A stretch of 64,000 nt of DNA from Verrucomicrobiales bacterium. GTDB taxonomy: Bacteria > Verrucomicrobiota > Verrucomicrobiia > Verrucomicrobiales > DEV007. The stretch is taken from the NCBI GenBank assembly GCA_029213065.1, contig JARGPH010000002.1, positions 153,305 through 217,304 of the forward strand, written 5' to 3'. The notes under the pieces are model-generated. The model saw only the letters and a list, made by a program, of their open reading frames with translations. It did not search any database and was not told the origin of the DNA. Position 1 is the first letter of the stretch, and each line of letters opens with the position of its first letter. The translations under genes were made by a program, and so were the position numbers. Below are positions 3,674 through 63,732 of the stretch, piece by piece.

Positions 3674-3685
3674 CGCCTTTCAAGA

Positions 3686-5242
3686 TCAGTGCGGTGCCTC
3701 CTGAACGGATTTCAGCAGTGCCTGAAGCCTCTCGACGATCTCGGGATTCTCTTCCCAGAGGTTCTCCGTTTCCGAGGGATCGTTGCCCAAATGATAGAGC
3801 TGACCGGCGGGCCCGCCTTCTTTCGCCGGATTGAGATCGCGTGGGTTTGTGAATCCACCCGATCCGCGGTGGGGGATCATTTTCCAGGGCCCCTGACGAA
3901 CCGCGAAAGTTCCCCAGAGCGAATGATGAATCGCAAAGTCGCGGACGGGTTTCTCCGGCTTCGCATTTCGCAAAGCAGGGAGGATGTTGACGCTGTCAGG
4001 ACTGGCTCCTTCCGGCAAGGTGCCTCCGGTAATCGCAGCGCAGGTCGCGAGGAGGTCGGTCAGCTCGACGAGTTCGTCATTCACGGTCCCTGCGGGAGTG
4101 AATCCGGGCCAGCGCACCACGAAGGGGACGCGATGTCCACCTTCCCAGATGTCGGCCTTGGTGCCGCGGAGGTGAGCGTTGCCCTGATGCCCGAATTCTT
4201 TCATCGCCGCTCCTCGTCCTCTGATTTTGTAGTGTTTCAGGTCGTCTCCTTCTTTCGCGTCCCACCAGTGATAGAGCCCTCCGTTGTCTGAGGTGAAAAT
4301 GACGAGGGTGTTGTCGGCCAGTTCGGTGCGGTCGAGGGCGTCGAGAATCGCTCCGACAAAGGCGTCCGTTTCGACGACGAAGTCACCGTAGTCTCCGGCT
4401 TCGCTGGTTCCGTTGAATTCTGCATTCGGGATCACGGGGAGGTGCGGCGAAGTCAGCGGAGCGTAGAGGAAAAAGGGCGTGTCAGGGCGTTCTGCCTCTT
4501 GCTCTTCGATGATGCGAACCGCTTCGCCGGTGAGCCGTGGCATCACTCCGGCAATCGTGAAATCGGGTGAGCGCACCCCTTCGTCGACGACGATGAAGTC
4601 GGTACGGATCGCCGCTTGTTTCAGGTCGGGGACCTGGTAGGGCCGGTCGTCGACGAGGTAGCAGAAGGGCGACATGTTGAGTGAGGCCGAGATCCCGAAA
4701 AAGCGATCAAAGCCCACTGCGGTGGGGCCACCTCTCACAGGAACGGAAAAGTCGACATCGAATCCGGGGCGTGGTGGGAAGCGTCGTTCAAGGGGAACTG
4801 CGGGAAGTGGTTCACCCCTTGTGTCGGTCCATTCCATTCCGAGATGCCACTTCCCGACGCAGGCAGTGTCGTAGCCGGCCTCGCGGAGGAAGCCGGGAAC
4901 GGTGACCTGATCCGGTTCGATGAGTGGCGGGTCAAAGCCATCGAGGACGCGGTATTTGAGCCGGGTTCGCCAGCTGTAGCGTCCTGTCAGGATTCCGTAA
5001 CGTGTCGGTGTGCAGACCGCTGACGGGGTATGCGCATCGGTGAATCGCATGCCTTCTGCGGCGAGACGATCCACGTGCGGAGTCTGGATTCGCGACTCCG
5101 GGTTGTAAGCGGAGACGTCGCCGTACCCGAGATCGTCGGCGAGGATGTAGATGATGTTCGGGTGCTGCGGTGATGCGTTGGTGTTGAAAGCGATTGTCAC
5201 GGCTGAGAGCGCGATCAGGAAAATGGGGAGCCTCGGGGACAT
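3686..5242 (-). CDS. Secreted sulfatase (arylsulfatase family, S1)
   Basis: 518-residue type I sulfatase with an N-terminal signal peptide (hydrophobic segment about residues 4-22). Metal-binding Asp are at 36-37 in ILADDLGYGD. The formylglycine motif is CTPTR with Cys at 77, followed by YGILTGRYSWR. The later metal motif FTSDNGGLYHWW is present. It hydrolyses sulfate esters, probably on algal or host polysaccharides, in the periplasm or outside; the exact substrate cannot be read. Activation needs a formylglycine-generating enzyme; the only FGE-fold protein in this window (16932-18080) lacks one of the two catalytic Cys. The gene is transcribed towards the RND operon and divergently from 5458-6048. 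Confidence 0.95.
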   Translation of the reverse strand: MSPRLPIFLIALSAVTIAFNTNASPQHPNIIYILADDLGYGDVSAYNPESRIQTPHVDRLAAEGMRFTDAHTPSAVCTPTRYGILTGRYSWRTRLKYRVLDGFDPPLIEPDQVTVPGFLREAGYDTACVGKWHLGMEWTDTRGEPLPAVPLERRFPPRPGFDVDFSVPVRGGPTAVGFDRFFGISASLNMSPFCYLVDDRPYQVPDLKQAAIRTDFIVVDEGVRSPDFTIAGVMPRLTGEAVRIIEEQEAERPDTPFFLYAPLTSPHLPVIPNAEFNGTSEAGDYGDFVVETDAFVGAILDALDRTELADNTLVIFTSDNGGLYHWWDAKEGDDLKHYKIRGRGAAMKEFGHQGNAHLRGTKADIWEGGHRVPFVVRWPGFTPAGTVNDELVELTDLLATCAAITGGTLPEGASPDSVNILPALRNAKPEKPVRDFAIHHSLWGTFAVRQGPWKMIPHRGSGGFTNPRDLNPAKEGGPAGQLYHLGNDPSETENLWEENPEIVERLQALLKSVQEAPH

Positions 5243-40364: not shown

Positions 40365-41642
40365 ATGAGTGATTCAAACTGGGATGTCGTCGTCATCGGA
40401 GCAGGACCTGCGGGTGCGACTGCTGCCGCCCTCCTCGCTGAGAAAGGGAGGAAGGTTCTCGTGCTGGAAAAGGAAAAGTTTCCCCGCTACCACGTCGGCG
40501 AATCGATGATGCCGTATTGCTGGTTCACCCTCGATCGACTCGGGATTGTCGATAAGATGGACCAAATCGGCTTTCAGCAGAAGCACAGTGTGCAGTTTGT
40601 CTCCAGAGACGGACAGGTTTCGAAGCCTTTCTACTTTTTCGAGCACGACGAGAGGGCCTCGGCCGTGACTTGGCAGGTCGAGCGGATGGAGTTTGACCAA
40701 ATGATCGTTGATCGTGCCGTAGAGCTCGGTGCCGAGGTTCAGGATGAGCAGAAAGTAACGCAACTCATCAAAGACGACGCCGGAGCCGTCATTGGCGTTT
40801 CGGTCGAGAACTCCGCCGGTGAGAAACGCGACGTGTTCGCGAAAATCGTGATTGATGGCTCGGGGCGTGACGCCGTTGTCGCCAGCAAAGAAAAATGGCG
40901 GAACCGGGATCCGGCTCTGAACAAGATTGCAATCTGGACCTACTACGACGGCGCGATGCGTGACCCCGGGCTCGATGCCGGATCGACCACCGTGGCCTAC
41001 ATTCCCGGAAAGGGATGGTTCTGGTATATCCCGATGCGGAACAACCGCGTCAGCGTCGGACTCGTTGCGGACCGCGACTACCTCTACCGTGACTCCCGTG
41101 ACCCGGGTGAGATTTTTGAACGCGAGATTCTCGAGAACGCCTGGATCAAGGAGCACCTCGAGCCCGGTAAACAGGTGGGCCAGTACTGGGTTACCGGCGA
41201 ATACAGTTACCGTGCCAATTATTGCGCCGGAGACGGCGTCGTTCTCGTCGGAGATGCCTTTGCCTTTCTCGATCCGGTCTTTTCCTCCGGTGTTTTCCTC
41301 GCCCTCAAGTCCGGGGAGCTCGCCGCTGATGCGATCGAGATGGCGCTTGAAAAAGGGGACGCCAGCGCCGCACAATTCGAGCACTACGGCAAAGATGTCT
41401 GCCTCGCGATCGAACGCATGAGAAAGATCGTTTACGCCTTCTATCATCCCGAGTTCAACTTCGGGAAGCTCGTCAAAAAGCATCCGCATCTCCGCCCGAT
41501 TCTCACCGATCTTCTCATTGGCGATGTCTTCGTCGATAAGTTTGAAGAGCTCTTCGCGGCGGTGCGTGAGATCTGTGATCTGCCCACCGAGCTGGACTAC
41601 GGCTTCCGTGTTGCGGATTTGGAGGCGACGGCGGGAGGGTGA
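40365..41642 (+). CDS. Flavin-dependent oxidoreductase, tryptophan-halogenase / geranylgeranyl-reductase-like
   Basis: 425 residues. FAD-binding VVVIGAGPAGATAAALL (GAGPAG 12-17), EKEKFPRYHVGESMMP, a second FAD contact GDGVVLVGDAFAFLDPVFSSGVFLAL. The segment GWFWYIP (W218-x-W-x-I-P 223) matches the WxWxIP motif of flavin halogenases of the non-tryptophan subgroup. The same superfamily includes reductases and hydroxylases, so halogenation is not certain. It follows the chorismate-lyase-like gene by 15 bases; flavoproteins of this kind act on carrier-bound or free aromatic acids in pigment and phenolic pathways. Confidence 0.8.
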   Translation: MSDSNWDVVVIGAGPAGATAAALLAEKGRKVLVLEKEKFPRYHVGESMMPYCWFTLDRLGIVDKMDQIGFQQKHSVQFVSRDGQVSKPFYFFEHDERASAVTWQVERMEFDQMIVDRAVELGAEVQDEQKVTQLIKDDAGAVIGVSVENSAGEKRDVFAKIVIDGSGRDAVVASKEKWRNRDPALNKIAIWTYYDGAMRDPGLDAGSTTVAYIPGKGWFWYIPMRNNRVSVGLVADRDYLYRDSRDPGEIFEREILENAWIKEHLEPGKQVGQYWVTGEYSYRANYCAGDGVVLVGDAFAFLDPVFSSGVFLALKSGELAADAIEMALEKGDASAAQFEHYGKDVCLAIERMRKIVYAFYHPEFNFGKLVKKHPHLRPILTDLLIGDVFVDKFEELFAAVREICDLPTELDYGFRVADLEATAGG

Positions 41643-48433: not shown

Positions 48434-51400
48434 ATGTCCAAGAACGAATCAGCGAATCGCGAGCCTTTGGCTATCGTGGGGATAGGATGTCGACTACCGG
48501 GAGGCGTTTCCGGTCCCGAGTCCTTTTGGCAAATGATGGTTGAAGGCAAATCGGGAATTGTCCCTGTGCCTACTGATCGTTGGAATCGTGAGCGGTGGCA
48601 CCACGAGAACGTGGATATCCCGAGTAAGATGATCACCAAGTGGGGTGGTTTTGTTCACGATCACGACAAGTTCGATGCACAGTTTTTCGGTATCTCGCCT
48701 CGTGAGGCTCTGCGAATGGATCCCCAGCAGCGCTGGATGCTCGAGACAGCATGGGAGTCTCTTGAGGATGCAGGCATGGCGCCTGACAGCCTTCGTGGTT
48801 CTCAAACTTCGGTTTACGTGGGTATTGCTTCAAATGATTATGCGAACGTCGCTCAGAGTGACTCGCGTAATGTGGACGTTCACACAAACTCGGGAAGTAC
48901 TCTCTCGATTGCCTCGAACCGTATTTCGTATCTCTTTGACCTGAAGGGACCTTCTGTATCGGTTGATACGGCGTGTTCCTCTGCGCTGGTTGCGATCAAC
49001 CTCGCGTGTGAAAGCGTCTGGGCAGGGCAGGCGACGATGGCTCTGGCCGGAGGTGTCAACGCACTCCTCACCCCGGATGCTTCGATTGGTTTCTCCAAGG
49101 CGACGATGCTTTCCCCGACGGGACAGTGTTTCGCATTCGACGACCGCGCGAACGGTTATGTTCGTGGTGAAGGTGCCGGGATGTTCGTGATCAAACCTCT
49201 CGCGAAGGCGCAGGAGGATGGTGACCGGATCTATTGCACGATCAAGGCGGCAGTGATCAACCAGGATGGTAACACCTCGTCGATGACAGTTCCCGGGGTT
49301 GAGACTCAGGCGGAGATGCTTCGCATTGCCTACAAGCAGGCGGGAATCGAGCCAAAGCGTGTTCGCTACATGGAAGCGCACGGAACGGGAACGCCGGTGG
49401 GTGACCCCATCGAAACCCGTGCCCTCGGTATCGTTCTTGCAGACGGACGTGACGAAGATGACGTTTGTCTCGTTGGTTCAGTGAAAACAAATGTGGGACA
49501 CCTCGAGTCAGGCTCGGGTGTCGCAGGTGTTGCCAAGGCCGCGCTGGTCTTGCATCACGACACGATTCCGCCGAACTTGAATTTCAAGAACCCGAATCCG
49601 AACATTCCGTTCGACGAGTTCAAGATGAAGGTTGCGACGGAGTTGCAGCCATTGCCTCACCTCGGTGAGCATTTGCCGGTGGTCGGCGTGAACAGTTTTG
49701 GATTTGGTGGCACCAACTCACACATCGTTCTCGAAGCGGCTCCTCCGACTTTGAAGAAGGCAGGAGCTTCTGACGATAAAGCGAAAGCGAAGCGTCCCGT
49801 TCTTCTGCCTGTTTCCGCTCGTGGCGACGATGCGCTCACTGACACGGTCAAGAAGTGGCGTCGTTACCTCAAGGGAACCAATAGCGATCTCAATGCCATC
49901 GCCGCAGCAGCGGGCACAAAGCGTGAGCATCACGACAACCGTCTCGCGATCATCGCGGACGATAAGGTGGACCTTCTTCACGAGATGACCGAGTGGCTTG
50001 CCACCGGTAGCAGTGATAAAGTGATTCCGGGCAAGCCTGCAGGTGAAGCCCATCCCCTCGTATTTGTCTTCACAGGGCAGGGGGCTCAGTGGTGGAAGAT
50101 GGGGCAGGACCTCATCAAGCGTGAGCCCGTTTTCCTCGGCGTTCTCGAAGAGATTGATAAGCACCTCAAGCCGCTCGCGGGCTGGTCGCTCATCGACGAG
50201 ATGACGAAGGACGAGGAGTCTTCTCAGATCAATCGCACCAACATCGCTCAGCCTGCTATTTTCGGTCTTCAGATCGCGTTGGCGGAACTTTGGAAGTCCT
50301 GGGGCATTGTTCCCTCAAAAGTAGTCGGTCACTCTGTGGGTGAGGTCGCTGCGGCATACGTTGCCGGCGCCTACACGATGGAGGACGCCGTTACGATTAT
50401 TTATCACCGTTCACGTCTTCAGGACGAGACTGGTGGAAACGGCCGCATGGTCGCGGTGGGCATTTCCCAGGCGGAAGCCAAGAAGGCGCTTGCCGGCATT
50501 GAAGAGCAGGTTCAAGTCGCAGTGGTAAACAGTCCCGGTATGCTCACGCTGGCCGGTGATACCGAGCCACTCGAGGCAGTCGTCGAGAAGCTGGAGGAGG
50601 AAGGTAAATTCGTCCGCTGGCTCAGAATCGACTACGCGTTCCACACGCATCAGATGGAGCCGATCAAGGAGGAGCTTCTTGAGACTCTCAAAGACATCAA
50701 GCCGCGCGAAACGACGATTCCCTACATCTCCACTGTGACCGGCGGAATGTGCGAGGGAACGAAGCTCGACGGCGAGTATTGGTGGAACAACGTGCGTGAG
50801 TCCGTTCTCTTCGCTCCGGCGATCGCGAACCTGATCCGCTCCGGTGAGGACACCTTCCTTGAACTCGGGCCACACCCTGCGCTTCAGAATCCGATTCTCG
50901 AGTGTCTTTCCGATCAGGGCCGCAAAGGATTTTATTTCTCCAGCCTGAAGCGTAAGACAGATGAGTCTGTCGAAATGCTGACGCAGCTCGCGAATCTGCA
51001 TAACCACGGTTACAAGATCGACTGGGCATCTGTGAACCAGTCCGACGGTGCTGAGGTTCGTCTTCCCACTTACGCGTGGCAGAAAGAGAAATTCTGGCTC
51101 GAGTCTCCCGAGAATGAGTACCTTCGTTGTGCTCCGCTTGAGCATCCTCTGCTCGGGTTGGTTCAATCGGCGCCGAAGCCAACCTGGCGTTTCGATCTTG
51201 ATCCACGTTACTTTACCTGGCTCGATGATCACCGTTTCTGGGACAGCGTTGTTTTCCCGGCGGCCGGTTATGGCGAGATCGGTATTGCGATTTCCCGCAA
51301 GTTGTTCCCCGACGAGAATTATGTCGTCGAGGACCTGGAGATGAAAAAGGCCCTCTTCGTGACTGAAGAGAAAGTGCCGACGGTTCAGGTCGTCTTCGAT

Positions 51401-54400
51401 CCTGATACCCGTGTTTTCCAAATCTTCAGCAGCACTGGTGACCAGAAAGACTGGGAGCTGAATTCTCAGGGGGTATTGCGCAAGCAGCCATTGCCTGTTG
51501 ATAAGACCGCTGACTTCGAGGCGATCAAAGCCGGGATGGAAAAACATTTTACTCATGAAGAGTATTATGAGGACTACGAGGATGCCGGATATCAGTTCCG
51601 TCCTTTGTTCCAGCACCTTCAGAATGTGTGGAGAAAAGACGGTGAGGCGCTCGCGGAGATCGTTGCGCCTGAAGGGCTTCGCAGCACGATTCCCGATCAC
51701 CACTTTCATCCTGCTGTGCTCGATGCCTGTTTCCACACTGTCAAAGGTGGACAGGTCATCCCGGACGGAGCCAAGGGAAGCGATTACTTTTACCTCCCCG
51801 CAGCGATTCGCAGTATCCGACTTTATTCCGAAAAACCACCGCTTCGTCTCTGGGGACATGCCAAGGTGAATTCAGACAATGATCGCGAATACATCATCGC
51901 TGACATCGATGTCTACGATGACGCCGGTAACCTCGTAGCCGAGATCTACGGTTTCCGTGCCGACCGTGTTGAGCAGAGTGACAACGACGATCTTGAAAAA
52001 TGCCTCTACGAAGCTCGTTGGGAGCAGGGGATGCTCAAGGGAACCCGTATCGAAGGTTCTGCTAAAGTGCCCTCATCGGATGATTTGGTGAAAGCGGCCA
52101 GCGAAGGGCTTCAAGAGCTCTATGATGCCCGCGGTCTCGCCGATCACTACGGCAAATTCCTTCCTGCGATGGAGGCGATTTCGCGTCAGTTCATTACCAA
52201 TGCCTACATTGAGTTGGGTTGGAATCCTGAAGTGGGTGACACCGTCGAGGTGGATTCCCACATGGCTGATCTCTCGATTGCTGATCACCATCGCAAGCTC
52301 GTCTATGGACAACTCACGGCTCTTACCGAAGCGGGAGTTCTCGAAGACGCCGGCAATGACACCTGGAAGGTTGTCGAAAAGCCTGAGCACGAGGAAGCGC
52401 TTCAGTGGGTCAACAAGCTCGCGGTTGAAATGCCCGAGTTCGCCTCTGAGGCCGAACTTCAGCGTCTCACCGGTCCGAATCTCGCAGGTGTTCTCAGTGG
52501 TGAGACCGATCCTCTTGAGGTTCTCTTTCCCGGCGGATCAGCCAGCGTCATGGAGCGGTTCTACCGCGAAGGGGCTGACTTTCCCGTCATCAACGAACAG
52601 ATTCATCTCGCGCTTGCCGCAGCGGTCAAGAACCTTCCTGAGCGACGCGCGATTCGCGTTCTCGAGGTGGGCGCCGGAACCGGTTCACTCACGAATGAGA
52701 TTCTCGACGTGTTCCCGCCGGAACGCACCGAATACGTCTTCACCGATAACGGCCCGCTTTTCCTTCAGTCCGCTCAGGACCGATTCGAAGAGGAGTATCC
52801 GTTTGTGGAATACAAAATGTTCGATTGTGAGAAGAGCCCTGAATCCCAGGGAATCGAGCCACATCATTTTGACATCATTCTCGCCTCGAACGTGATTCAC
52901 GCGACGCAGGACCTTACCGTAACGATGAACAACCTTCGTCGTTGCATGGCTCCGGATGCGACCCTGATGTTCCTCGAGGTTACCTGGCGCCGTGCCGCGC
53001 TCGATAACGTCTTCGGACTTCTCGGCGGTTGGTGGCGTTTCACCGACACTGATCTCCGTAAGCACTCAGCGCTGCTCACTCGGAAAGAGTGGACGAAGTT
53101 TCTCAGCAGTCTCGATTTCCGTGAGGTGACCAGTTTCATCAGTTCCCCGAACGAAACAGAAGATCAGCAGGCCTGTCTCGTTGCGAAAGCACCAAGCCCG
53201 GTTGAATTGCCGGTTGAAGAGGAAGAGGGCGACGCCGCTGCTTCTGTCGATACCGAAGAGGAAGCTGTGGTTAAAGAGCTTGTTCTGATTACGAATGACA
53301 AGTCAGGCCTCGGCAAGAAGCTTTCCGGTGAACTCGCTTCAGATGAGGTTGATACACTGCTCGTTGACGGAACCGTTGCTGCGATCACCGCCGCTCTCGA
53401 TACCCTTGCTGAAGAAGAGCGGTCAGTTAAGACAATTGTTCAAACGCTTGCCCTTGATCATCCAAAGGCCGCCGATCTGGATCTGGCTTCTTTGACTGAC
53501 GCACAGGACACGGGCGTTCACTTCGCACTCGAATTGGTTCCGGCGATTGTGGGACGTGAGTGGGAGACAAAACCACAGATCGTATTTCTCACTCGTGGAA
53601 CGATGCCGGTTGAGCCGGGCAAACCACTTCCAGGTTTGGCCTCCGCGCCGATCACCGGATTGCTGCGAGTCGTAAACAACGAGCACCCTGAGTTCTGTTG
53701 GTCACAGATCGATCTCGATCCTGCGGAGAATCCATTCGAGTTCAAAGATCTTTGCGACGAAATCAATCTTTCCGATGGGGAACACGAAATCGCCTACCGC
53801 GGAAACGGTCGCTATGTGCGTCGCGTTCACCGCGTCAAGCCGGATGATCTTCCAGCACGAACCCGCAATGCGGTTCAGGCGGATGGAACGGTTCTTCCTT
53901 ATCGCCTCCAAATTGATAAGCCGGGTATTCTCACGAATCTCAGCTTGAACGAAACGACACGTCGCGAGCCGGATCCCGATGAGATCGAGATTCAGATCAA
54001 AGCGGGAGGTATTAACTTCCGTGATGTCATGAAGGCTCTCGGAATCTATCCGGGTAACCCTGTTGACTTGAAGTGGTTCGGTGATGATTTCTCCGGAACC
54101 GTCGTCAAAGTGGGCTCCAATGTGAAGGATCTCAAAGTCGGCGACAATGTCGTCGGTATGGCGCCATACTGTTTCCGCAGTTATGTGACCGTTCACCGCA
54201 ACATGGTGTTCCGTAAGCCGGACACGATGAGTCATGTCGAGGCTTCGACCTTGCCGACCGTGTTCCTCACAACGCACTATGCGATGAATGAACTCGCCCG
54301 GATGGAGAAGGGTGAGAGCATCCTCATTCATGCCGGAACCGGTGGAGTGGGGCAGGCTGCGATTCAAATTGCCCAGCACCTCGGCCTCGTTGTTTTCTCA

Positions 54401-57400
54401 ACTGCGGGAAGTCCCGAGAAACGTCAGCTCCTCACCGACATGGGTGTCGATCACGTGCTCGATTCACGGACCCTTAAGTTCGCGGATGAGATCATGGAGA
54501 TCACCAATGGAGAAGGGGTCGATGCGGTTCTCAACTCGCTTGCCGGCGACTTCATTCCGAAAAACTTCAGCGTTCTGAAAACGTTCGGACGCTACATGGA
54601 GATTGGTAAAGTTGACGTTTACGGCAACTCGAAGATCGGTCTCGAACCACTTCGTAACAACATCAGTTTCTTCGTCATTGATTTGGCGCAGCACTTGCAG
54701 AGCAAGCCTGCTTACGTCGCGAAAATGTTCTCCGAGCTGGAGGCGATGTTCTACGACGAGACTTACAAGCCGCTTCCGAACAAGGCGTTCCCGGTTACCG
54801 AGGTGGTCGAAGCATTCCGCTACATGGCGGCAGGCAAGCACATCGGTAAAAACGTTCTCGACTTCGACCTTCCTGAAATCGAGATCGGACAGCCGACCGA
54901 AGACGGAAACCGCTTCCGTGGAGATGGCACCTACCTGATCACCGGTGGGGCCGGCGGATTCGGACTCGAGCTCGCTCAGTTCATGGCTGACAACGGTGCG
55001 CGTCACTTTGCTCTCATGAGCCGTTCCGGCCCTAAAGAGGATGCGCTTGAGAAGATCGAAGCTCTCAAAGCCTGCGGCGCAACCGTGATCGATGCCCGTG
55101 GCGATGTCACGAAGCGTTCTGACATTGATAAAATCGTGAAAGAAATCCAGGCCGGCGATGCGCCGCTCATTGGAGTGATTCACGGTGCCATGGTTCTCGA
55201 TGATGAGTTTGTTCTCGAACTCAACAAGGAGCGTTTTGACAGCGTGCTTCTTCCGAAGATGCTCGGTGCCTGGAACCTTCACGAGGCGACCCTTGATATC
55301 GAACTCGATTCATTCATCTGTTTCTCTTCTTTCTCCGCCTTCATTGGTGCGGTTAAGCAGTCAAACTACAACGCAGGAAACGTGTTCCTCGATCAGCTGG
55401 CTTTCTACCGTCGTTCACTCGGCCTGCCTTCACTTACGTTCAACTGGGGTGCTCTTGAGGGTGCCGGCTTTGTTGCCCGTAACGAGAAGACTCAGCAGTA
55501 TCTCGAAATGGTCGGACTTGGTGCGACGAACATGGAGGAAACGCTCCACTTGTTCAGCCTTGGTGCTCCTTCTGATTGCTACCAGCTTGGTGCAGCCCGT
55601 TGTAACTGGCAGGCGCTCGCCCGCTTCAGTCCTTCCGTGGGTGGATCGAAGATGTTCCTTCCCGTGGTTCCACGCTCCACTGCCGGTGGAGGTGATTCCA
55701 TGTCCGCTCGAATTCTCGAAGCTCCCGCTGAGAAACGCGCGGGTCTCGTTGAAGATCTCATCGCAGCTCAGGTCGGCGCCGTTCTCGGAACTGATGCCTC
55801 TCGCCTCGATAAAGATACACCGTTGACCAATCTCGGTCTCGACTCACTCATGGCGATTGAGCTGGTGAACCGGATCGAAGAGAAGCTCGGCATGTCAATG
55901 CCGATGGGCTCTGTTCTCAATGGTCCGAGCATTAAGGATCTCTCCGTTCCGGTCCTTGAGAAACTGATCGAATCCGGTGGCAGCCAATCAGGCGATGGAT
56001 CGGGCATTGATGCTTCGAGCCTCGTTGAATTCGAAGTCACAGGTGAGATGCCGGAAATGTTCCCGCTCACCGAAGGTCAGAAGGCGCTCTGGTTCCTCAA
56101 CCGCCTTGCTCCGAATTCTTCGGCCTACAACCTGAACTTCTCAGGTAAGTTCCGTCCGCTCCTTAATATTGATGCGATGAAGAAGGCGTTCTCGCTTCTC
56201 TTCGAGCGTCATCCGCTCATCGACGTGACGTTCACAACCGTCAATGGCGAGCCTATGCAGGTCGTTCACACCGGACGGACGATCGATTTCCGCGAGCACG
56301 ATTGCACGGCCCTCGACGACGATCAGCTGAAAGAGCTCATCAGTGAGCACGCAAGCCGTCCGTTCAATCTTGAGCGTGGTCCCGTTGTTCGACTTGAGCT
56401 TTTCCGCACTGCGGACGACGCCCACGTCGCTCTCCTCAGCATGCACCACATCATCTCCGATGCGTGGTCCATTGCCGTGATGATTCAGGATCTCATCGAA
56501 TACTACTTCTCGACCAAGGCTGGAAGAACGCCACAGGTTGAGCCAATCGCGGCGTCCTACTCGGACTTCGTAAACTGGGAAAAAGCCCACCTCGAAAGCG
56601 AAGCGGGCGAGAATATGTTCGAGTTCTGGAAAGAGCATCTCGCCGGTGCTCCCGGAGCGATCGATCTTCCGACCGATCGCACTCGACCAGCCGTGCAGAC
56701 CTTCAATGGTGCCACTTACGGCTTCCAGTTGGATGAAGAACTCACGACCTCGGTCAACGAGCTGGCGAAAGAAAACAGCGTGACTCTGTTCACGACGCTT
56801 CTCTCTGCTTACGACATTCTCATGCACCGTTACTGCCAGCAGGACGACATCGTGATCGGTGTTCCTCTTGCCGGAAGAACGCAACCCGAGCTGAAGAGCA
56901 GTGTTGGCTACTTCATCAACCCGGTTCCGGTTCGAAGCACGGTTGATGACGACCCGACGGTTGAGGATTACCTCGCGAAGAACTCACTTGCCGTGAACGG
57001 AGCACTGGAAAACCAGCAGTATCCGCTCGCACGCATGGTGGATCGACTCGATGTCGTTCGTGATGCCGGTCGTTCACCGCTTTTCCAGGTCAGTTTCACG
57101 ATGGAAAAAGTGCCCGGGATCGATGATGAAGGTATCGCCGTGTTCCTTATCGGACAGGGAGGTCACACCTTCCACGTCGGTGATCTTTCAATGGAAACGA
57201 TCGACCTGACAACGCGTCAGTCACAGTTCGAAATTACCCTGACACTTGAAGAAGCCGGTGGGCAACTCTTCGGTTGCTGGCAGTATAACCGCGATCTATT
57301 CGACGAGGCAACGATCAAGGAATTGAACGGGCTCTACGAGCAGGTGCTCCGCCAGATCACGACTGATTCGACCACGAAGATTTCCGAAGTGAAGCTTCTC

Positions 57401-60400
57401 GCCGACAAAGATGAGAAGACACTCGTGTCGACGCTGAACAACACAAAAGCGAAGTTCGAAGACGACGCTTTGCTCCACGATCTTATCGCTGCGGTAGCGG
57501 CTGAGAAAGACGAGGATGTTGCGGTGATCTTTGAGGATAATCACACCTCCTACGGCAAGCTGAATCGACTCGCCAATGGCGTCGCCCGTGATCTTATCGC
57601 GAACGGTGTCAGTGTGGGAGACAATGTCGGCGTGCTCGCTGATCGTTCACCTCGCATGATCGGTGCTCTTCTCGGAGTGCTCAAAGCGGGTGCGACCTAT
57701 GTGCCGCTCGATCCTGATTTCCCGGCTCATCGTCTCGATCTCATGCTCGAAGATGCGGCTCCGAAAGCGTTGATCGCTTCCGGTAAGCATTATTCGAATG
57801 CACCGAAAGGAAGCTGGAAGGCGATTAATCTCGATGATATCGAAGGAACCTCGAAAGCACCTGAAGTGAAGGGTGTCACACCGGATTCACTTGCTTACAT
57901 CATCTATACTTCCGGTTCTACAGGAACACCGAAAGGCGTTGAGATCCCGCACCGTGCTGCAGTGAACTTTCTCCGTTCGATGGAGAAAGCTCCGGGCCTG
58001 AGCGCGGACGACACCCTTCTTGCGGTGACGACGCTCTCGTTCGATATCTCCCTCCTGGAACTCTTCCTGCCACTCCTTGCCGGCGCGAAAGTCGTCATGG
58101 CCGGCGGTGATGATGTCAAAGACGGTCGTCGACTTGCCAATCTTCTTTCCGAGGAGGACATCACGGTGATGCAGGCAACTCCTGCGACCTGGCAGCTTCT
58201 TCTCGACAGCGGTTGGGAAGGTAAGAGTGATCTCCGGATCTTCTGTGGCGGTGAAGCGCTCACGAGAAGCCTCGCGAACACGCTCGTCAACTCAGCTGCG
58301 GAAGTCTGGAACCTTTACGGCCCTACTGAAACAACGGTCTGGTCTTCGATTGAGAAGATCGAAGAAGGGGACGAGACGATTTCAATCGGTCTTCCGATCG
58401 CGAACACACAGGTTTATATTCTCGATGGAAACGACAAGCTCGTGCCTCAGGGATTCACCGGTGAACTCTGGATCGGTGGCGCAGGCCTCGCCCGGGGGTA
58501 TCGCAACCAGCCCGATCTCACTGCGGAAGCGTTCCGTGAGATTGAGCTTCCCGTTGTCGGAAAACAGCGACTTTACCGAACCGGCGACCTTGCACGCTGG
58601 AATCGGGACAACAAGCTGGAGTGCCTTGGACGTGTTGATTTCCAGGTGAAGGTCAGAGGTGTCCGGATGGAACTCGGCGATATCGAACAGCAGATGGAAA
58701 GCATCGCCGGTATCAAACAGGCTGTCGTTGCTAAACGCGAGGACCTGCCGACAGGTGAAGGCCTCGTCGGATACTACATCGCTGACAGCAGTTCGTTCGA
58801 GGCCGCTACGATTCGTGAGAATCTTGCCGCGAATCTTCCTGCGAGTTACATTCCCGCGTTCTTCAAGCGTGTTGAGGAATTTCCTCTGACGCCGAACCGT
58901 AAGATCGACCGCCGTCGTCTTCCTATGCCGACGATCGGTGCTTCCTCCGATGGAGAGAAAGTGGCACCGCGGACCTCTGCAGAAGAGCGACTCTGGAAAG
59001 TGTTCAGCCGCAATTTCGATTCAGAAGACTTCGGTGTTACCGACAACTTCTTCGAAATGGGCGGAGACTCACTGATGGCGCTTCGCATCATCGTTGACGT
59101 GTCTGACGAGTTCGGACAGGACGTGCCGGTGGACGTTTTCCTCACTCATGCCAATATCGAGCAACTGGCTCAATATCTGTCGAGTGAACGCGTTGAAACG
59201 GCTCCAGTGTCCTCCGGTTCAGATGAAGAGTCGGAAGTGATCCCATCGTTTGAAGACTTCGCCCACATCACGATCGAAGATACCGTCGAAGAGATGCCGA
59301 AATTGGATGCGGTCGCACTGACCTACATTCCGGATGTTTTGGCTAACTTGTCAGGGATGACACGCGACGAAATCTCCGAGAGAATGTTCGCGAACAAGCC
59401 GCGTCTCACGAATGTGTATGAACTCGACGAAGGTAAGATCGGTGTCTTGATGCTCCCTTGCTTCGAAACCGATTTCTACAAAGAACTCGATTCGGTGAAA
59501 GCTCCGACGATCGCCGCCCTTGAAATGGCAGCTGAAGCGGGTGCCAAGTGCGTTTCACTCACCGGTGTCATTCCAATGACAACCGACCACGGTCGCAAGA
59601 TCAGCGAGTGGATCAAAGGACGCAAAGACCTCCCGGAGATCACGACAGGTGACGCGACTCGTTCAGCGACGATTGTGAAGTCGGTTGAAGGCATCCTCGC
59701 TAAAACAGGACGTGACCTTTCTGACGAAACCCTCTCCGTGGTCGGTCTCGGCTCGATTGGATTTGGAACCTTGCGCCTAATGCTCGACGTCATGGAGCAT
59801 CCGAAGCACTTGATCCTCTGCGATCCCTATCAAACCGATGATCAGATGAGCCGTTGCCGCGACCTTATTCGCGACGCCGGTTACCAGGGGCAGGTGGATA
59901 TCGTGAAAAATGGAGGCGCGCTTCCTCCGGAGGTTTACGCAGCATCGATTGTCGTTGCTTCGTCCAACCTTCCCGGTGTTCTCGATATCAAGGCTCTGAA
60001 TCCGAATACGCTGATCGTGGATTACAGCTTCCCGCCAGTCTTCCGTGTTGATGAGGCGATTCGCCGATTCACAGCGGACCAAGACATTCTCTTCACGACA
60101 GGTGGAGAACTCAGGATGTCGAACGTGGTGAGCGAAACAATCTACCTTCCCGACGAAGCTGAAGATGTTGATGAGTCCGTTCAGGACGCGTTCAGCAAAT
60201 TCCTCGCGGGTCGTGATAAGAATGAAATCACCGGTTGTGTTCTCGTCAGTCTCCTGACCGGATCTAACGACGATCTTTCTTCCACGGTCGGGCCGCTCGA
60301 TCACAAGGAGGCAGTGGCTCACTACGAAGCTCTCGAAGAGATGGGCGTGACACCTGCAAAACTGCAGATGTCCGGCTTTTTCCTCCCCGAGAAGGGAATC

Positions 60401-60445
60401 GACTCGTTTCTCAATAATGAGCGGGATGCGTCGACTACTACTTGA
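48434..60445 (+). CDS. Hybrid PKS-NRPS megasynthase with C-terminal acyl-ACP-reductase-like domain
   Basis: 4003 residues, no loading domain or signal. By residue: KS 10-440 (Cys 181 in DTACSS, His 316, His 356); AT 540-830 (GHSVGE, Ser 634; YAFH at 734-737, between malonyl and methylmalonyl signatures); DH 900-1185 (His 933, Asp 1097, though HxxxG is HxxxD); C-methyltransferase 1200-1585 (EVGAGTG 1411-1417); pseudo-KR about 1610-1815; ER 1820-2145 (HAGTGGVGQ 1966-1974); KR 2164-2400 (TGGAGGFG 2170-2177, Ser/Tyr/Asn kept, LDD motif as in B-type KRs); ACP (Ser 2471); C 2535-2985 (HHIISDA 2671-2677); A 3010-3495 (code DILQFGLVWK, close to glycine); T (Ser 3546); AAR-like reductase about 3620-4003 (GLGSIG 3771-3776, candidate Cys 3935). 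Reducing, probably iterative polyketide joined to glycine and released reductively; product unknown. Monocistronic. Confidence 0.93.
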   Translation: MSKNESANREPLAIVGIGCRLPGGVSGPESFWQMMVEGKSGIVPVPTDRWNRERWHHENVDIPSKMITKWGGFVHDHDKFDAQFFGISPREALRMDPQQRWMLETAWESLEDAGMAPDSLRGSQTSVYVGIASNDYANVAQSDSRNVDVHTNSGSTLSIASNRISYLFDLKGPSVSVDTACSSALVAINLACESVWAGQATMALAGGVNALLTPDASIGFSKATMLSPTGQCFAFDDRANGYVRGEGAGMFVIKPLAKAQEDGDRIYCTIKAAVINQDGNTSSMTVPGVETQAEMLRIAYKQAGIEPKRVRYMEAHGTGTPVGDPIETRALGIVLADGRDEDDVCLVGSVKTNVGHLESGSGVAGVAKAALVLHHDTIPPNLNFKNPNPNIPFDEFKMKVATELQPLPHLGEHLPVVGVNSFGFGGTNSHIVLEAAPPTLKKAGASDDKAKAKRPVLLPVSARGDDALTDTVKKWRRYLKGTNSDLNAIAAAAGTKREHHDNRLAIIADDKVDLLHEMTEWLATGSSDKVIPGKPAGEAHPLVFVFTGQGAQWWKMGQDLIKREPVFLGVLEEIDKHLKPLAGWSLIDEMTKDEESSQINRTNIAQPAIFGLQIALAELWKSWGIVPSKVVGHSVGEVAAAYVAGAYTMEDAVTIIYHRSRLQDETGGNGRMVAVGISQAEAKKALAGIEEQVQVAVVNSPGMLTLAGDTEPLEAVVEKLEEEGKFVRWLRIDYAFHTHQMEPIKEELLETLKDIKPRETTIPYISTVTGGMCEGTKLDGEYWWNNVRESVLFAPAIANLIRSGEDTFLELGPHPALQNPILECLSDQGRKGFYFSSLKRKTDESVEMLTQLANLHNHGYKIDWASVNQSDGAEVRLPTYAWQKEKFWLESPENEYLRCAPLEHPLLGLVQSAPKPTWRFDLDPRYFTWLDDHRFWDSVVFPAAGYGEIGIAISRKLFPDENYVVEDLEMKKALFVTEEKVPTVQVVFDPDTRVFQIFSSTGDQKDWELNSQGVLRKQPLPVDKTADFEAIKAGMEKHFTHEEYYEDYEDAGYQFRPLFQHLQNVWRKDGEALAEIVAPEGLRSTIPDHHFHPAVLDACFHTVKGGQVIPDGAKGSDYFYLPAAIRSIRLYSEKPPLRLWGHAKVNSDNDREYIIADIDVYDDAGNLVAEIYGFRADRVEQSDNDDLEKCLYEARWEQGMLKGTRIEGSAKVPSSDDLVKAASEGLQELYDARGLADHYGKFLPAMEAISRQFITNAYIELGWNPEVGDTVEVDSHMADLSIADHHRKLVYGQLTALTEAGVLEDAGNDTWKVVEKPEHEEALQWVNKLAVEMPEFASEAELQRLTGPNLAGVLSGETDPLEVLFPGGSASVMERFYREGADFPVINEQIHLALAAAVKNLPERRAIRVLEVGAGTGSLTNEILDVFPPERTEYVFTDNGPLFLQSAQDRFEEEYPFVEYKMFDCEKSPESQGIEPHHFDIILASNVIHATQDLTVTMNNLRRCMAPDATLMFLEVTWRRAALDNVFGLLGGWWRFTDTDLRKHSALLTRKEWTKFLSSLDFREVTSFISSPNETEDQQACLVAKAPSPVELPVEEEEGDAAASVDTEEEAVVKELVLITNDKSGLGKKLSGELASDEVDTLLVDGTVAAITAALDTLAEEERSVKTIVQTLALDHPKAADLDLASLTDAQDTGVHFALELVPAIVGREWETKPQIVFLTRGTMPVEPGKPLPGLASAPITGLLRVVNNEHPEFCWSQIDLDPAENPFEFKDLCDEINLSDGEHEIAYRGNGRYVRRVHRVKPDDLPARTRNAVQADGTVLPYRLQIDKPGILTNLSLNETTRREPDPDEIEIQIKAGGINFRDVMKALGIYPGNPVDLKWFGDDFSGTVVKVGSNVKDLKVGDNVVGMAPYCFRSYVTVHRNMVFRKPDTMSHVEASTLPTVFLTTHYAMNELARMEKGESILIHAGTGGVGQAAIQIAQHLGLVVFSTAGSPEKRQLLTDMGVDHVLDSRTLKFADEIMEITNGEGVDAVLNSLAGDFIPKNFSVLKTFGRYMEIGKVDVYGNSKIGLEPLRNNISFFVIDLAQHLQSKPAYVAKMFSELEAMFYDETYKPLPNKAFPVTEVVEAFRYMAAGKHIGKNVLDFDLPEIEIGQPTEDGNRFRGDGTYLITGGAGGFGLELAQFMADNGARHFALMSRSGPKEDALEKIEALKACGATVIDARGDVTKRSDIDKIVKEIQAGDAPLIGVIHGAMVLDDEFVLELNKERFDSVLLPKMLGAWNLHEATLDIELDSFICFSSFSAFIGAVKQSNYNAGNVFLDQLAFYRRSLGLPSLTFNWGALEGAGFVARNEKTQQYLEMVGLGATNMEETLHLFSLGAPSDCYQLGAARCNWQALARFSPSVGGSKMFLPVVPRSTAGGGDSMSARILEAPAEKRAGLVEDLIAAQVGAVLGTDASRLDKDTPLTNLGLDSLMAIELVNRIEEKLGMSMPMGSVLNGPSIKDLSVPVLEKLIESGGSQSGDGSGIDASSLVEFEVTGEMPEMFPLTEGQKALWFLNRLAPNSSAYNLNFSGKFRPLLNIDAMKKAFSLLFERHPLIDVTFTTVNGEPMQVVHTGRTIDFREHDCTALDDDQLKELISEHASRPFNLERGPVVRLELFRTADDAHVALLSMHHIISDAWSIAVMIQDLIEYYFSTKAGRTPQVEPIAASYSDFVNWEKAHLESEAGENMFEFWKEHLAGAPGAIDLPTDRTRPAVQTFNGATYGFQLDEELTTSVNELAKENSVTLFTTLLSAYDILMHRYCQQDDIVIGVPLAGRTQPELKSSVGYFINPVPVRSTVDDDPTVEDYLAKNSLAVNGALENQQYPLARMVDRLDVVRDAGRSPLFQVSFTMEKVPGIDDEGIAVFLIGQGGHTFHVGDLSMETIDLTTRQSQFEITLTLEEAGGQLFGCWQYNRDLFDEATIKELNGLYEQVLRQITTDSTTKISEVKLLADKDEKTLVSTLNNTKAKFEDDALLHDLIAAVAAEKDEDVAVIFEDNHTSYGKLNRLANGVARDLIANGVSVGDNVGVLADRSPRMIGALLGVLKAGATYVPLDPDFPAHRLDLMLEDAAPKALIASGKHYSNAPKGSWKAINLDDIEGTSKAPEVKGVTPDSLAYIIYTSGSTGTPKGVEIPHRAAVNFLRSMEKAPGLSADDTLLAVTTLSFDISLLELFLPLLAGAKVVMAGGDDVKDGRRLANLLSEEDITVMQATPATWQLLLDSGWEGKSDLRIFCGGEALTRSLANTLVNSAAEVWNLYGPTETTVWSSIEKIEEGDETISIGLPIANTQVYILDGNDKLVPQGFTGELWIGGAGLARGYRNQPDLTAEAFREIELPVVGKQRLYRTGDLARWNRDNKLECLGRVDFQVKVRGVRMELGDIEQQMESIAGIKQAVVAKREDLPTGEGLVGYYIADSSSFEAATIRENLAANLPASYIPAFFKRVEEFPLTPNRKIDRRRLPMPTIGASSDGEKVAPRTSAEERLWKVFSRNFDSEDFGVTDNFFEMGGDSLMALRIIVDVSDEFGQDVPVDVFLTHANIEQLAQYLSSERVETAPVSSGSDEESEVIPSFEDFAHITIEDTVEEMPKLDAVALTYIPDVLANLSGMTRDEISERMFANKPRLTNVYELDEGKIGVLMLPCFETDFYKELDSVKAPTIAALEMAAEAGAKCVSLTGVIPMTTDHGRKISEWIKGRKDLPEITTGDATRSATIVKSVEGILAKTGRDLSDETLSVVGLGSIGFGTLRLMLDVMEHPKHLILCDPYQTDDQMSRCRDLIRDAGYQGQVDIVKNGGALPPEVYAASIVVASSNLPGVLDIKALNPNTLIVDYSFPPVFRVDEAIRRFTADQDILFTTGGELRMSNVVSETIYLPDEAEDVDESVQDAFSKFLAGRDKNEITGCVLVSLLTGSNDDLSSTVGPLDHKEAVAHYEALEEMGVTPAKLQMSGFFLPEKGIDSFLNNERDASTTT

Positions 60446-60505: not shown

Positions 60506-60566
60506 TTGGAAGCTCAGTCTAATAATGCGTGTGCTTCTCCCGTCATACACTGGTCAGAAGAGGAAC

Positions 60567-62774
60567 ATGAGACAGACCGCTAAAATCATCCTGGGGCTGG
60601 TGCTCGTTTTCGGGATAGCCAACGTATTCGGCTATCCGCTTACTCTCGATCAACGGGAACGTTTCAAGCGCTACATTCCCCGCAGTTTCGCGAAGCTTGA
60701 AGCCGCGGAGCCTGTTCATGTCGTTTCGATCGGGGACGGGGTCATGGGTGGAATCACTCCACTGCCAACGGCGTGGGAAAGTGGCAATCCTCTGTTTTCC
60801 TATACGGGGATGTTCCTGACCCGTCTTGCACGGGAGTTTTTCTACACCGGTGGCGTTGAACTGCTGAACCCTCCGGAGGGTGGCTCCGCCAAGATATCGC
60901 CCTATCTGGGAAATGAGATCACCTTGGAGAATCTTACGATCCCGGACGGCAACGCCCTTGATGGCCTTCGCCGCGCGACGACGGATGCTTTCGTTCACGA
61001 TCCCGATATGCTTCTGGTCCAGTTTGGGATTTATGACTCCTTCGGCTACCTCTCAATCGACAGCTATCAGCGGGCCGTTCAGGAAATCATCGATGCCGCT
61101 AAGCGTTCCAATACCGACGTGGTGATCTTCAGCCCGACCCTTGTCAATTTTGGCGAAGGGGCCATGGAGTGGGGGATTACAAGGCCATACGCCACTGCGG
61201 CACGCGAAGTCGCGGCATTGAACGGGGTGCTCTTTATCGATCTGGGTGCTCACCTCACGAGGCTTGGTGGAGGGATCGATCCCGCCTCTGAACCTCAGGC
61301 GGGGATGCAGGTGATTGGCGACAAACTCACCGGCATTTTCAAGTTCGGACCTGATCTGCAGACTCGTGAGCGGATTCATCCAGCCGGGAAAGCGAACGAG
61401 TATCTTGGCGAAGTCATCTTTGATGATCTCAAGAACGGTCCCCGCGAATCGAATTTCACGTTTGCCGCAGTCGCCGCCTACGAGAACAACAGCAAGATCA
61501 ATGTCACGGTCGCGATCACGAATCAATCAGATCAGCCGCATGAAGGCAGTATCGGTGCACTCTCTGTCGGCAGTTCTATTGTTCCGGTTGATATCGCCCA
61601 GCGTTTCAAGGTGGATCCGGGAAAAACAACTCAGCTCCTCTTTCGCTACAAGCGCCCGCTCGTGGGAAAAGCGCGCGACGGTTCAGACCTCTTCTATCCA
61701 GTCGCGGCAAGTGATGAATTGGGGCGTTTCAGTTTTGTTCTCGAAGACACCGTCGGTTCGGAATTGGTGGATCTTCCTGTCCGGGTGGGGCCGGTCACGG
61801 CGCTATGGAAATCCCGCCACTACATCAACGTGTCGAATAAGCTGCGCATCGAATGGGATCTCGTGAGCGGCTACGACAAGCCGGTTTCGGGGACTTTTCA
61901 GGTGGGGATGGGAGATAAAGTGGGGCCACCAACCCCTTTTTCGGTATCTCCACTTGGAACCAAGACGGTATTTTCTATTTTTGACTTCGAGGGTGGCAAT
62001 GAGGCGCAGATCCAGAAAGATGTCTGGATTCAGGTCGAAGCGGACGGGCGGATCGTCCGCTTCACTCGCGAGATGGAGGCGACCAAGGATATCGTGCTCG
62101 GCGAACCGATCGCGATGAAGCCATGGGCGGACTACGCCAATGCAAGACCGGCCGGCACCGTCGATGCCAAAGCGCGGCCGGAAGGAAAGGCGACCTGGCT
62201 GTTCGATGCTGATGAAAAAGCACTGTATGCGATTGCGAGACTTGAGCGGCTTCGTATTCCGGACATGGGTGACAAAGCGGCGATTCAAGTCCGTCTCTTT
62301 CTCGATGCAAGATCCAGTGACGGTATCAGCAGTTTCGGGGCGATTGAGCCCATAGAAGTTTATACCAAAGCCTCTGATGGGCCCGGCGTGACTTCTCCGA
62401 TTCAACTCGGATCGTTCGGATCGGGCTACAACATGCTTTTGAGCGAAAAGGGTATTACTTCGACTCTGGATGATGCAGATGATGGTGCAAAACTTCTTAC
62501 GATTCGAATCCCGAGAACCTATCTCCATGAGCACGAGTGGGATTTGGGATCGATTGATTCTGTCCTCGGATTCCGTGCTGAACTGACGCTGGCTGACTCT
62601 CTCCCTGACGCGACTGAACCGTTCCCGGCCCGCAACCGCTATGAGACGAGCAGTCCTTCCTTTGCCTTCGACAATCGACCGATTCTCGGATTCCATGAGA
62701 ATGATGCAAGAGCGCTTTCCACGCTCAGACTCTCGCGGACCCCGGTGAGCAGTTGGTCGGTTAGGATTTATTAG
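60567..62774 (+). CDS. Exported SGNH-fold protein lacking the nucleophile Ser, with C-terminal beta-sandwich region
   Basis: About 735 residues from the ATG at 60567, chosen because AGAGG lies just upstream and it opens a signal/anchor helix (MRQTAKIILGLVLVFGIANVFG); a start at 60525 is possible. The N-terminal third follows the SGNH plan: VVSIGDGVMGG where GDS should be (Gly at residue 58 replaces Ser), LLVQFGIYDSFGYLS as block III, and RIHPAGKANEYLG with the late His. The block I Ser is therefore missing. The rest has beta-rich segments; WLFDADEKALYAIARLERLRIPDM ... IQVRLFLDAR resembles CBM9-like domains. Probably a binding or structural protein. It has its own transcription unit after the PKS terminator. 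Confidence 0.65.
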   Translation: MRQTAKIILGLVLVFGIANVFGYPLTLDQRERFKRYIPRSFAKLEAAEPVHVVSIGDGVMGGITPLPTAWESGNPLFSYTGMFLTRLAREFFYTGGVELLNPPEGGSAKISPYLGNEITLENLTIPDGNALDGLRRATTDAFVHDPDMLLVQFGIYDSFGYLSIDSYQRAVQEIIDAAKRSNTDVVIFSPTLVNFGEGAMEWGITRPYATAAREVAALNGVLFIDLGAHLTRLGGGIDPASEPQAGMQVIGDKLTGIFKFGPDLQTRERIHPAGKANEYLGEVIFDDLKNGPRESNFTFAAVAAYENNSKINVTVAITNQSDQPHEGSIGALSVGSSIVPVDIAQRFKVDPGKTTQLLFRYKRPLVGKARDGSDLFYPVAASDELGRFSFVLEDTVGSELVDLPVRVGPVTALWKSRHYINVSNKLRIEWDLVSGYDKPVSGTFQVGMGDKVGPPTPFSVSPLGTKTVFSIFDFEGGNEAQIQKDVWIQVEADGRIVRFTREMEATKDIVLGEPIAMKPWADYANARPAGTVDAKARPEGKATWLFDADEKALYAIARLERLRIPDMGDKAAIQVRLFLDARSSDGISSFGAIEPIEVYTKASDGPGVTSPIQLGSFGSGYNMLLSEKGITSTLDDADDGAKLLTIRIPRTYLHEHEWDLGSIDSVLGFRAELTLADSLPDATEPFPARNRYETSSPSFAFDNRPILGFHENDARALSTLRLSRTPVSSWSVRIY

Positions 62775-62889
62775 GTGCCTCGCGGCAGGGCGCGTCCGAA
62801 TTTCCGGGGAGAGCCCGGCCAGGCTGCGACATCATTGCGTGATCGAATCCGGCTGGGCGGGAACGATTCGATTACCTATCGTTTCGCAC

Positions 62890-63732
62890 ATGATGAAACG
62901 ATTCCTGTTATCGACGTTGCTGGGGCTGGCCTTTTTACTGTCTGGTCCGGCTCTGGGGGAACACGAAGGCAAAGTTCGAATCCTTCTTCTCGGAGACAGC
63001 ACGACAGAGGGAAGTGTTCCGCGTCGATTGAAACCCGAAGGCCCGCACTTCGAGGAAGTGATGGAGCAACTTCTTAACGGAGAGGACGATTTACCTCCGT
63101 GCGAGGTGATCAATTCCAGTCAGAGCGGCGAAACGATCAAACGGCTTTTCGATTCCGGTCGCTACGATAAGAAGGGTGCCGATCTCGAGGGCATCGACTA
63201 CATCTTTATCCGTTACGGGATCAACGACAAAGCGAAGCGGGAGAATTTCCCGGTGAATTTCGTGGCCGATTTTCACGGAATGATAGAGCGGCTCCGTAAA
63301 GATCATCCCGGCGCACTTATCATTCCGATGACCGTGATTCCCTTCTCCAGTGAAGAGGTGAGCAAGGAGATCAATGATCTGATCCGGGAGGTGGCGCATC
63401 ATGAAAAGCTCGAAGTCTTTGATATCTATCCCCGCTATGCCGCCGAGTTGGAAAAGGGCTACAATATGCTCAACTACCGGCGCTATCCGATCGCGAAGAT
63501 TCCCGAAAAGTATCACGAGTGGTTGCAGCCACGAGTCACGGGAGATCGTGTTGAGGTGATGGGGAACGAGCTTGATGGCATTTTCGGACATCTTCCCGGC
63601 TGGACTTCAGATCGGCATCCGAACCTTGCCGGTTACAACGTCATCGCCGACGAATCGGTCAAGTATCTCGCTCCGATTTTGCGGAAGCGAAACCCGGTGA
63701 AAGCGAAGGCCGCAGAGCCGGTGGCGAAGTGA
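62890..63732 (+). CDS. Secreted SGNH/GDSL hydrolase
   Basis: About 280 residues from the ATG at 62890 (MMKRFLLSTLLGLAFLLSG signal peptide); an upstream ATG at 62839 gives a non-signal extension. Block I LLLGDSTTEGS (Ser nucleophile), block III RYGINDKAKRENF (Gly and Asn of the oxyanion hole), block V SDRHPNLAGYN (catalytic Asp and His). All four SGNH residues are present. Likely an exported carbohydrate esterase. It lies downstream of the SGNH-fold protein without the nucleophile, so the two may act on the same envelope or glycan substrate. Confidence 0.85.
   Translation: MMKRFLLSTLLGLAFLLSGPALGEHEGKVRILLLGDSTTEGSVPRRLKPEGPHFEEVMEQLLNGEDDLPPCEVINSSQSGETIKRLFDSGRYDKKGADLEGIDYIFIRYGINDKAKRENFPVNFVADFHGMIERLRKDHPGALIIPMTVIPFSSEEVSKEINDLIREVAHHEKLEVFDIYPRYAAELEKGYNMLNYRRYPIAKIPEKYHEWLQPRVTGDRVEVMGNELDGIFGHLPGWTSDRHPNLAGYNVIADESVKYLAPILRKRNPVKAKAAEPVAK

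Follow-up and report, generated by a model that had tools for sequence, protein, structure and literature searches.

A bacterial PKS-NRPS with a fungal-like domain order, a predicted glycine module and a TAD/AAR-like release domain, near-core in a lineage of Verrucomicrobiales

We describe a single gene for a polyketide synthase-nonribosomal peptide synthetase hybrid (PKS-NRPS) from a Verrucomicrobiales bacterium. It lies in a stretch of 64,000 nucleotides (GenBank assembly GCA_029213065.1, contig JARGPH010000002.1, positions 153,305 to 217,304), which we call the window and whose own numbering is used below. Judged from its sequence, the enzyme combines a fungal-like domain order with a condensation domain of bacterial type, a predicted glycine module and a putative release domain of the TAD/AAR type (AAR, acyl-ACP reductase). 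The gene is near-core in a Verrucomicrobiales lineage. We propose that it encodes a self-contained bacterial highly reducing PKS-NRPS that serves as an acyl-glycine synthase, with probable reductive release by the TAD/AAR-type domain and possible later sulfation, and we give this reading as a whole about an even chance of being correct. In our opinion its two most interesting features are the release domain and the conservation of the gene across the lineage; neither appears in an earlier note on this DNA. A literature search returned no publication on a verrucomicrobial PKS-NRPS of such a kind.

The gene is one uninterrupted open reading frame (ORF; Table 1). The earlier note had ended it at 58920, which corresponds only to residue 3495; the true end lies about 1.5 kb further, at 60445, and the shorter range left out the T domain, with its serine at 59069, as well as the domain of about 400 residues at 59246-60442. 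As to the chain itself, Pfam matches agree with the claimed order of ketosynthase (KS), acyltransferase (AT), dehydratase (DH), methyltransferase (MT), enoylreductase (ER), ketoreductase (KR), acyl carrier protein (ACP), condensation (C) and adenylation (A) domains. The complete order is KS-AT-DH-cMT-psKR-ER-KR-ACP-C-A-T followed by the C-terminal domain, where cMT is a C-methyltransferase, psKR a putative pseudo-KR between MT and ER, and the last domain was recognized by phmmer. The S-adenosylmethionine motif of the MT (LEVGAGTGS) and the nucleotide-binding motif of the ER (GTGGVG) are indeed intact, as had been stated. It is also correct that this is a single module without a loading domain: no docking or loading domain was found and the KS begins at about residue 10. 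The YAFH motif of the AT is of malonyl type by the usual AFH rule.

Table 1. Positions of the PKS-NRPS gene, its domains and the downstream hydrolase gene in the window
Feature	Position	Strand	Details
PKS-NRPS ORF	48434..60445	+	4003 aa, ATG start
KS	48461..49735	+	Pfam PF00109/PF02801; Cys181, His316, His356 invariant
AT	50060..51010	+	PF00698; GHSVGE, YAFH motif
DH	51143..51979	+	PF21089/PF14765; His933, Asp1097
C-methyltransferase	52595..53122	+	PF08242/PF13489; LEVGAGTGS, His1489/Glu1515 dyad
Putative structural pseudo-KR	53231..53890	+	from position between MT and ER; phmmer alignment 1732-2342 to MAS
ER	53975..54859	+	PF08240/PF00107/PF13602; GTGGVG
KR	54926..55459	+	PF08659; Lys2275, Ser2298, Tyr2312
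ACP	55742..55963	+	PF00550/PF23297; Ser2471
C domain, bacterial type	56054..57424	+	PF00668; HHIISDAW
A domain	57494..58933	+	PF00501; code DILQFGLVWK, glycine type
T (PCP) domain	59018..59179	+	PF00550, residues 3529-3582; Ser3546
C-terminal TAD/AAR-like NAD(H) release domain	59246..60442	+	ITTGDAT, VGLGSIG, Cys3935, His3963
749-aa SGNH/GDSL hydrolase	60525..62774	+	79 bp downstream of PKS-NRPS

A chance origin of this architecture is excluded, because none of the 21 catalytic residues that were checked varies among 23 full-length orthologues (50-93% identity); these residues include the His/Glu pair of the MT, the His/Asp of the DH, the carrier serines and the TAD cysteine. The release domain is present in 51 of the 75 genomes of the family, and in 32 of these it lies within an open frame of at least 3990 aa; the shorter frames of the remaining carriers are probably often caused by contig ends. 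Within the genus of the window 30 of 34 genomes carry the gene. The four that lack it do not exceed 77% completeness, and every genome of this genus that is at least 79% complete has it. Carrier contigs with names place the lineage in Verrucomicrobiales and are mostly metagenome assemblies. Of 388 genomes sampled across the phylum, only the one that contains the window yielded the release domain, so that evidence of its breadth outside the family comes from G082, a genome of a different family of the order, and from three plasmid records. G082 encodes (locus L066, 2689-16944) a 4751-aa NRPS with four C-A modules that ends in a release domain of the same kind.

The roughly 400 residues behind the T domain match no Pfam family above the cut-off. 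A reductase of the short-chain dehydrogenase/reductase (SDR) type and a thioesterase (TE) were considered for this place and dropped, as Pfam gives no evidence of either. By phmmer the domain (query residues 20-407) is homologous over nearly its full length to the TAD of the carmabin pathway (PDB 9e4s/9e4x, E 2e-71), with an identity of about 35%. The matched entries are titled 'TAD from Carmabin Biosynthetic Pathway' and include complexes with NAD and NADH and a disulfide of Cys2238 with dephospho-CoA (9e56). A structure comparison with a low-confidence AlphaFold model (pLDDT 53) gave Z 20.9 to the TAD and Z 13.9 to the next group of matches, the cyanobacterial acyl-ACP reductase. Since this model is poor, it served only to find solved relatives that were already detected by sequence, and the claim of homology rests on the latter. 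Cys3935 is invariant in the 23 orthologues and aligns with the IMGC of the carmabin TAD; going by residue numbering, this cysteine (motif EITGC) appears to be the counterpart of Cys2238. We regard the domain as TAD/AAR-like, that is, probably AAR-like in fold and with a conserved cysteine. It has in common with the carmabin TAD (9e4s, 9e4u, 9e4x, 9e50, 9e56) and with VatR/HcaD the C-terminal place after a T domain, the NAD(H) site and the aligned cysteine, whereas here it sits on a PKS-NRPS with a glycine module and in Verrucomicrobiales. Fold and cysteine chemistry are also common to cyanobacterial AAR and to the PigE/TamH thioester reductases, but these occur by themselves or joined to an aminotransferase rather than to a PKS-NRPS. 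A TAD-like protein can also be free-standing: a Pantoea stewartii plasmid (L085, 7845-9134) encodes one of 429 aa, annotated as hypothetical, between the gene for a luciferase-like monooxygenase and NRPS genes, and this is possibly a release enzyme acting in trans.

The amino acid can be predicted from the A-domain code, for which a GrsA segment was the alignment anchor. Among all 24 sequences, the window and 20 orthologues have the code DILQFGLVWK, and the other three have DILQLGLVWK. This DILQ[F/L]GLVWK resembles DILQLGMIWK, which is listed among the signatures of glycine-activating A domains (PMC12283262), and that makes glycine the predicted residue.

The proposed mechanism is as follows. 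The AT would supply malonyl units, as its YAFH motif suggests by the general rule; the cMT would methylate the alpha position, and KR, DH and ER would fully reduce the beta position. In this way the KS-AT-DH-cMT-ER-KR-ACP half, most likely working repeatedly, would build an acyl chain that is reduced and alpha-methylated. The C-A-T half would join this chain to glycine by an amide bond, the acyl-glycyl group would move from the T-domain thiol onto Cys3935 of the TAD/AAR-like domain, and NAD(P)H-dependent release would follow, most likely as an N-acyl-glycinal or N-acyl-glycinol. Finally, a Sulfotransfer_3 enzyme, whose gene adjoins that of the PKS-NRPS in five genera and has another genomic location in others, would probably sulfate the product. 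Iteration, chain length, reductive outcome, sulfation and a lipid role are what we infer here. Two considerations lead us to prefer reduction: the release domain has a dehydrogenase fold, and a sulfotransferase requires a hydroxyl to act on.

A Sulfotransfer_3 gene lies within about 2 kb of the PKS-NRPS gene in genera g8, g14, g15, g16 and g17, usually as the next gene on the same strand, and is its neighbour in the divergent members of the family (L060, L061, L064, L065; in L064 at 2746-3855). Across the family 49 genomes have both genes, 22 have neither, and 2 and 2 are discordant (Fisher p 1.4e-14, a value inflated by the shared ancestry of the genomes). The discordant ones are incomplete or contaminated: G015 is 77% complete, G017 52%, G481 81%, and G039 90% with 6% contamination. 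Within g15 both genes are present in four genomes and both absent from six, and presence and absence are matched inside g17 as well. An apparent fusion of a sulfotransferase in G046 (a 1536-aa frame) was discarded, as sulfotransferase and release domain lie in different frames about 1.5 kb apart and the long frame is accidental.

Several points weigh against reductive release followed by sulfation. Tree correction makes the support for co-occurrence weak: a topA tree leaves just 5-6 independent informative pairs, of which 4-5 agree (sign test p ~0.22); the sulfotransferase of the window's own genome is on another contig, beside lpxB; and the sulfotransferase may have other substrates. Further, the release domain is nearer by sequence to amidation-linked TADs than to PigE or AAR. 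Amidation is indeed a serious rival to reduction. The terminal domain would then act as proposed for carmabin, vatiamide and hectoramide and yield an N-acyl-glycinamide, while the sulfotransferase would act on a polyketide hydroxyl or elsewhere. The carmabin TAD is the closest sequence relative, and the offloading domains of VatR and HcaD are believed to cause terminal amidation, although the mechanism itself was not studied in that work (PMC10949194). On the other hand, the fold is that of the NAD(H)-binding acyl-ACP reductases; PigE, an AAR-like relative whose family model matches the release domain weakly (1.6e-6), reduces thioesters to aldehydes (PMC8341465); and a terminal amide would give the co-occurring sulfotransferase no new hydroxyl. 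In our judgement amidation is possible, if on the unlikely side.

How often the PKS half acts is a separate matter. Two KS trees place the verrucomicrobial KSs outside the CurL/DEBS/MAS group (group support 86/90, SH-aLRT 82), their own position being weakly supported; the neighbours in this poorly resolved set are stand-alone bacterial single-module PKSs, loading KSQ domains and a fungal pair. A nesting of the KS among modular cis-AT KSs, named in the earlier note as evidence against its idea, is not seen in these trees. Further PKS modules were found neither in the window nor in the flanks (up to ~4 kb) of the loci of 23 relatives, and an ordinary cis-AT elongation module was rejected on account of the KS placement and the absence of other modules nearby. 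Because the KS is not nested with CurL, DEBS and MAS, no docking or loading domain exists and no module is nearby, the PKS can plausibly be read as a single module that stands alone and possibly iterates. Alternatively, the PKS half would not iterate: it would extend a fatty acyl starter provided in trans by a single C2 unit, methylated and reduced, before glycine addition and release. A single module without a loading domain agrees with this, and starters can come from fatty acid synthesis. However, the neighbourhood of the gene in the relatives examined showed no acyl-AMP ligase, ACP or starter gene, the KS is outside the modular extension group with CurL and DEBS, and the closest KSs are those of stand-alone single-module PKSs. 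We find single extension unlikely.

The repeated use that we prefer is a property of the fungal highly reducing enzymes with which the earlier note had compared this chain. LovB, PsoA and tenellin synthase have the order KS-AT-DH-MT-ER-KR-ACP-C(-A-T) in common with it, likewise on one stand-alone chain without a loading or docking domain. The verrucomicrobial enzyme differs in its bacterial C domain, intact ER motif and glycine code, and where the fungal enzymes release by an SDR reductase or a Dieckmann cyclase, it has the TAD/AAR-like domain and no such Pfam domain. The closeness to fungal enzymes that the earlier note implied is not supported. KS identity is 52-53% to PKSs of Planktothrix, Paraburkholderia and Deinococcus and 40% to LovB and PsoA (the LovB KS query is identical in every letter to the PDB chain). 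The C domain matches bacterial Txo2 with 217 bits, PsoA with 84 and LovB with 42, and is thus of bacterial and not fungal type. The suggested KS phylogeny gave a divided answer: the domain falls outside the modular group, yet a fungal affinity is neither shown nor rejected. The KS is not sister to LovB/PsoA in the trees, and the approximately unbiased (AU) test does not reject a forced clade with this pair (p 0.14 and 0.36). Acquisition of the gene from a fungus, to which the identical domain order and the AU values lend some room, is very improbable in view of the bacterial C domain, the higher KS identity to bacteria, the TAD-type release domain and the family-wide spread in Verrucomicrobiales, and the sequences of the C and release domains already appear to refute it largely.

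The earlier note also held the full domain set to be rare in bacteria. This is right for the fused PKS-NRPS: no plasmid record covers at least 80% of a DH-to-A query on one chain. It is not right for the PKS half, as KS-AT-DH-MT-ER-KR-ACP occurs on single plasmid proteins (95-100% coverage) of Deinococcus, Paraburkholderia, Gloeocapsa, Nostoc and Caballeronia, some of which adjoin lipid or surface-polysaccharide genes. In the plasmid clusters of Deinococcus sp. QL22 and sp. KNUC1210 a PKS of the same order is followed by a C-domain/NRPS gene, with thioester reductase and phosphopantetheinyl transferase (PPTase) genes nearby. QL22 shows the same logic, divided among PPTase, PKS, NRPS and thioester reductase genes. 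These clusters differ in that the functions are split over separate genes, the reductase is of another type and an aminotransferase is present. Mycocerosic acid synthase (MAS) is a stand-alone reducing module and the top or near-top PDB match over KS-AT-DH; it has no MT and no NRPS half, and its KS is not sister to the verrucomicrobial KS. The polycyclic tetramate macrolactam synthases are KS-AT-DH-KR-ACP-C-A-T-TE proteins with an ornithine A domain, whereas the present enzyme has MT and ER, a glycine code and no TE. Stand-alone reducing PKSs on Paraburkholderia and Caballeronia plasmids (L091, 6490-17975; L095, 4562-15901) adjoin an LTA-synthase-family protein, a deacetylase and a class I/II PLP aminotransferase, which resembles a lipid pathway. 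Another lies on a Sulfitobacter plasmid (L098, 5965-16799), where an MMPL transporter and an outer-membrane lipoprotein-sorting protein come after the PKS; this is likely another lipid system.

There is no dedicated gene cluster around the PKS-NRPS gene. Malate dehydrogenase and 4-alpha-glucanotransferase upstream and the SGNH hydrolase downstream are syntenic within the genus, and none of the tested neighbours was found beyond it. Of the 14 same-genus loci examined, 10 have a homologue of the hydrolase next to the PKS-NRPS gene, and the link of this hydrolase to the pathway is uncertain. Directly after it comes a second GDSL-type hydrolase of 297 aa (62839-63732), for which a homologue was found in one same-genus relative only. 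Also in the window is a FAD-dependent halogenase/oxidoreductase-like protein (40365-41642; Trp_halogenase 106 bits, CmlS-like below cut-off). An SDR gene beside the PKS in L064 and L065 was considered as an aldehyde reductase and not used, as it pairs with an enolase-superfamily gene and was seen in this place in only two genera. The window's own genome has an Sfp-type PPTase candidate and two further assembly lines: a KS-AT protein that also bears a class-III aminotransferase domain, with a C-A-T-TE protein after it (contig C20, L075, 6067-17105), and a 2600-aa A-T-KS-AT-KR-T-TE protein (contig C3, L076, 3380-11182).

With the glycine and release modules on the same protein, a single heterologous expression could be enough to reveal what is made and whether bacteria use the fungal-style logic of one-chain iterative PKS-NRPSs. 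The poorly understood TAD/AAR-like domain is here placed beside a defined residue, glycine, which makes the question of reduction or amidation directly testable. In its boldest form, which we offer tentatively and think rather unlikely, the product would be a previously unknown, N-acyltaurine-like structural lipid of the whole family, a sulfated N-(methyl-branched acyl)-glycinol made by a fungal-like iterative PKS-NRPS together with a lineage-linked sulfotransferase, and the AAR-type domain that releases it would be newly seen on a PKS-NRPS. For specialised metabolism it is unusual that the gene of a 12-kb megasynthase stands alone and is near-core throughout a lineage, and this suggests that its role in these bacteria is a basic one, for example in a membrane or surface lipid.

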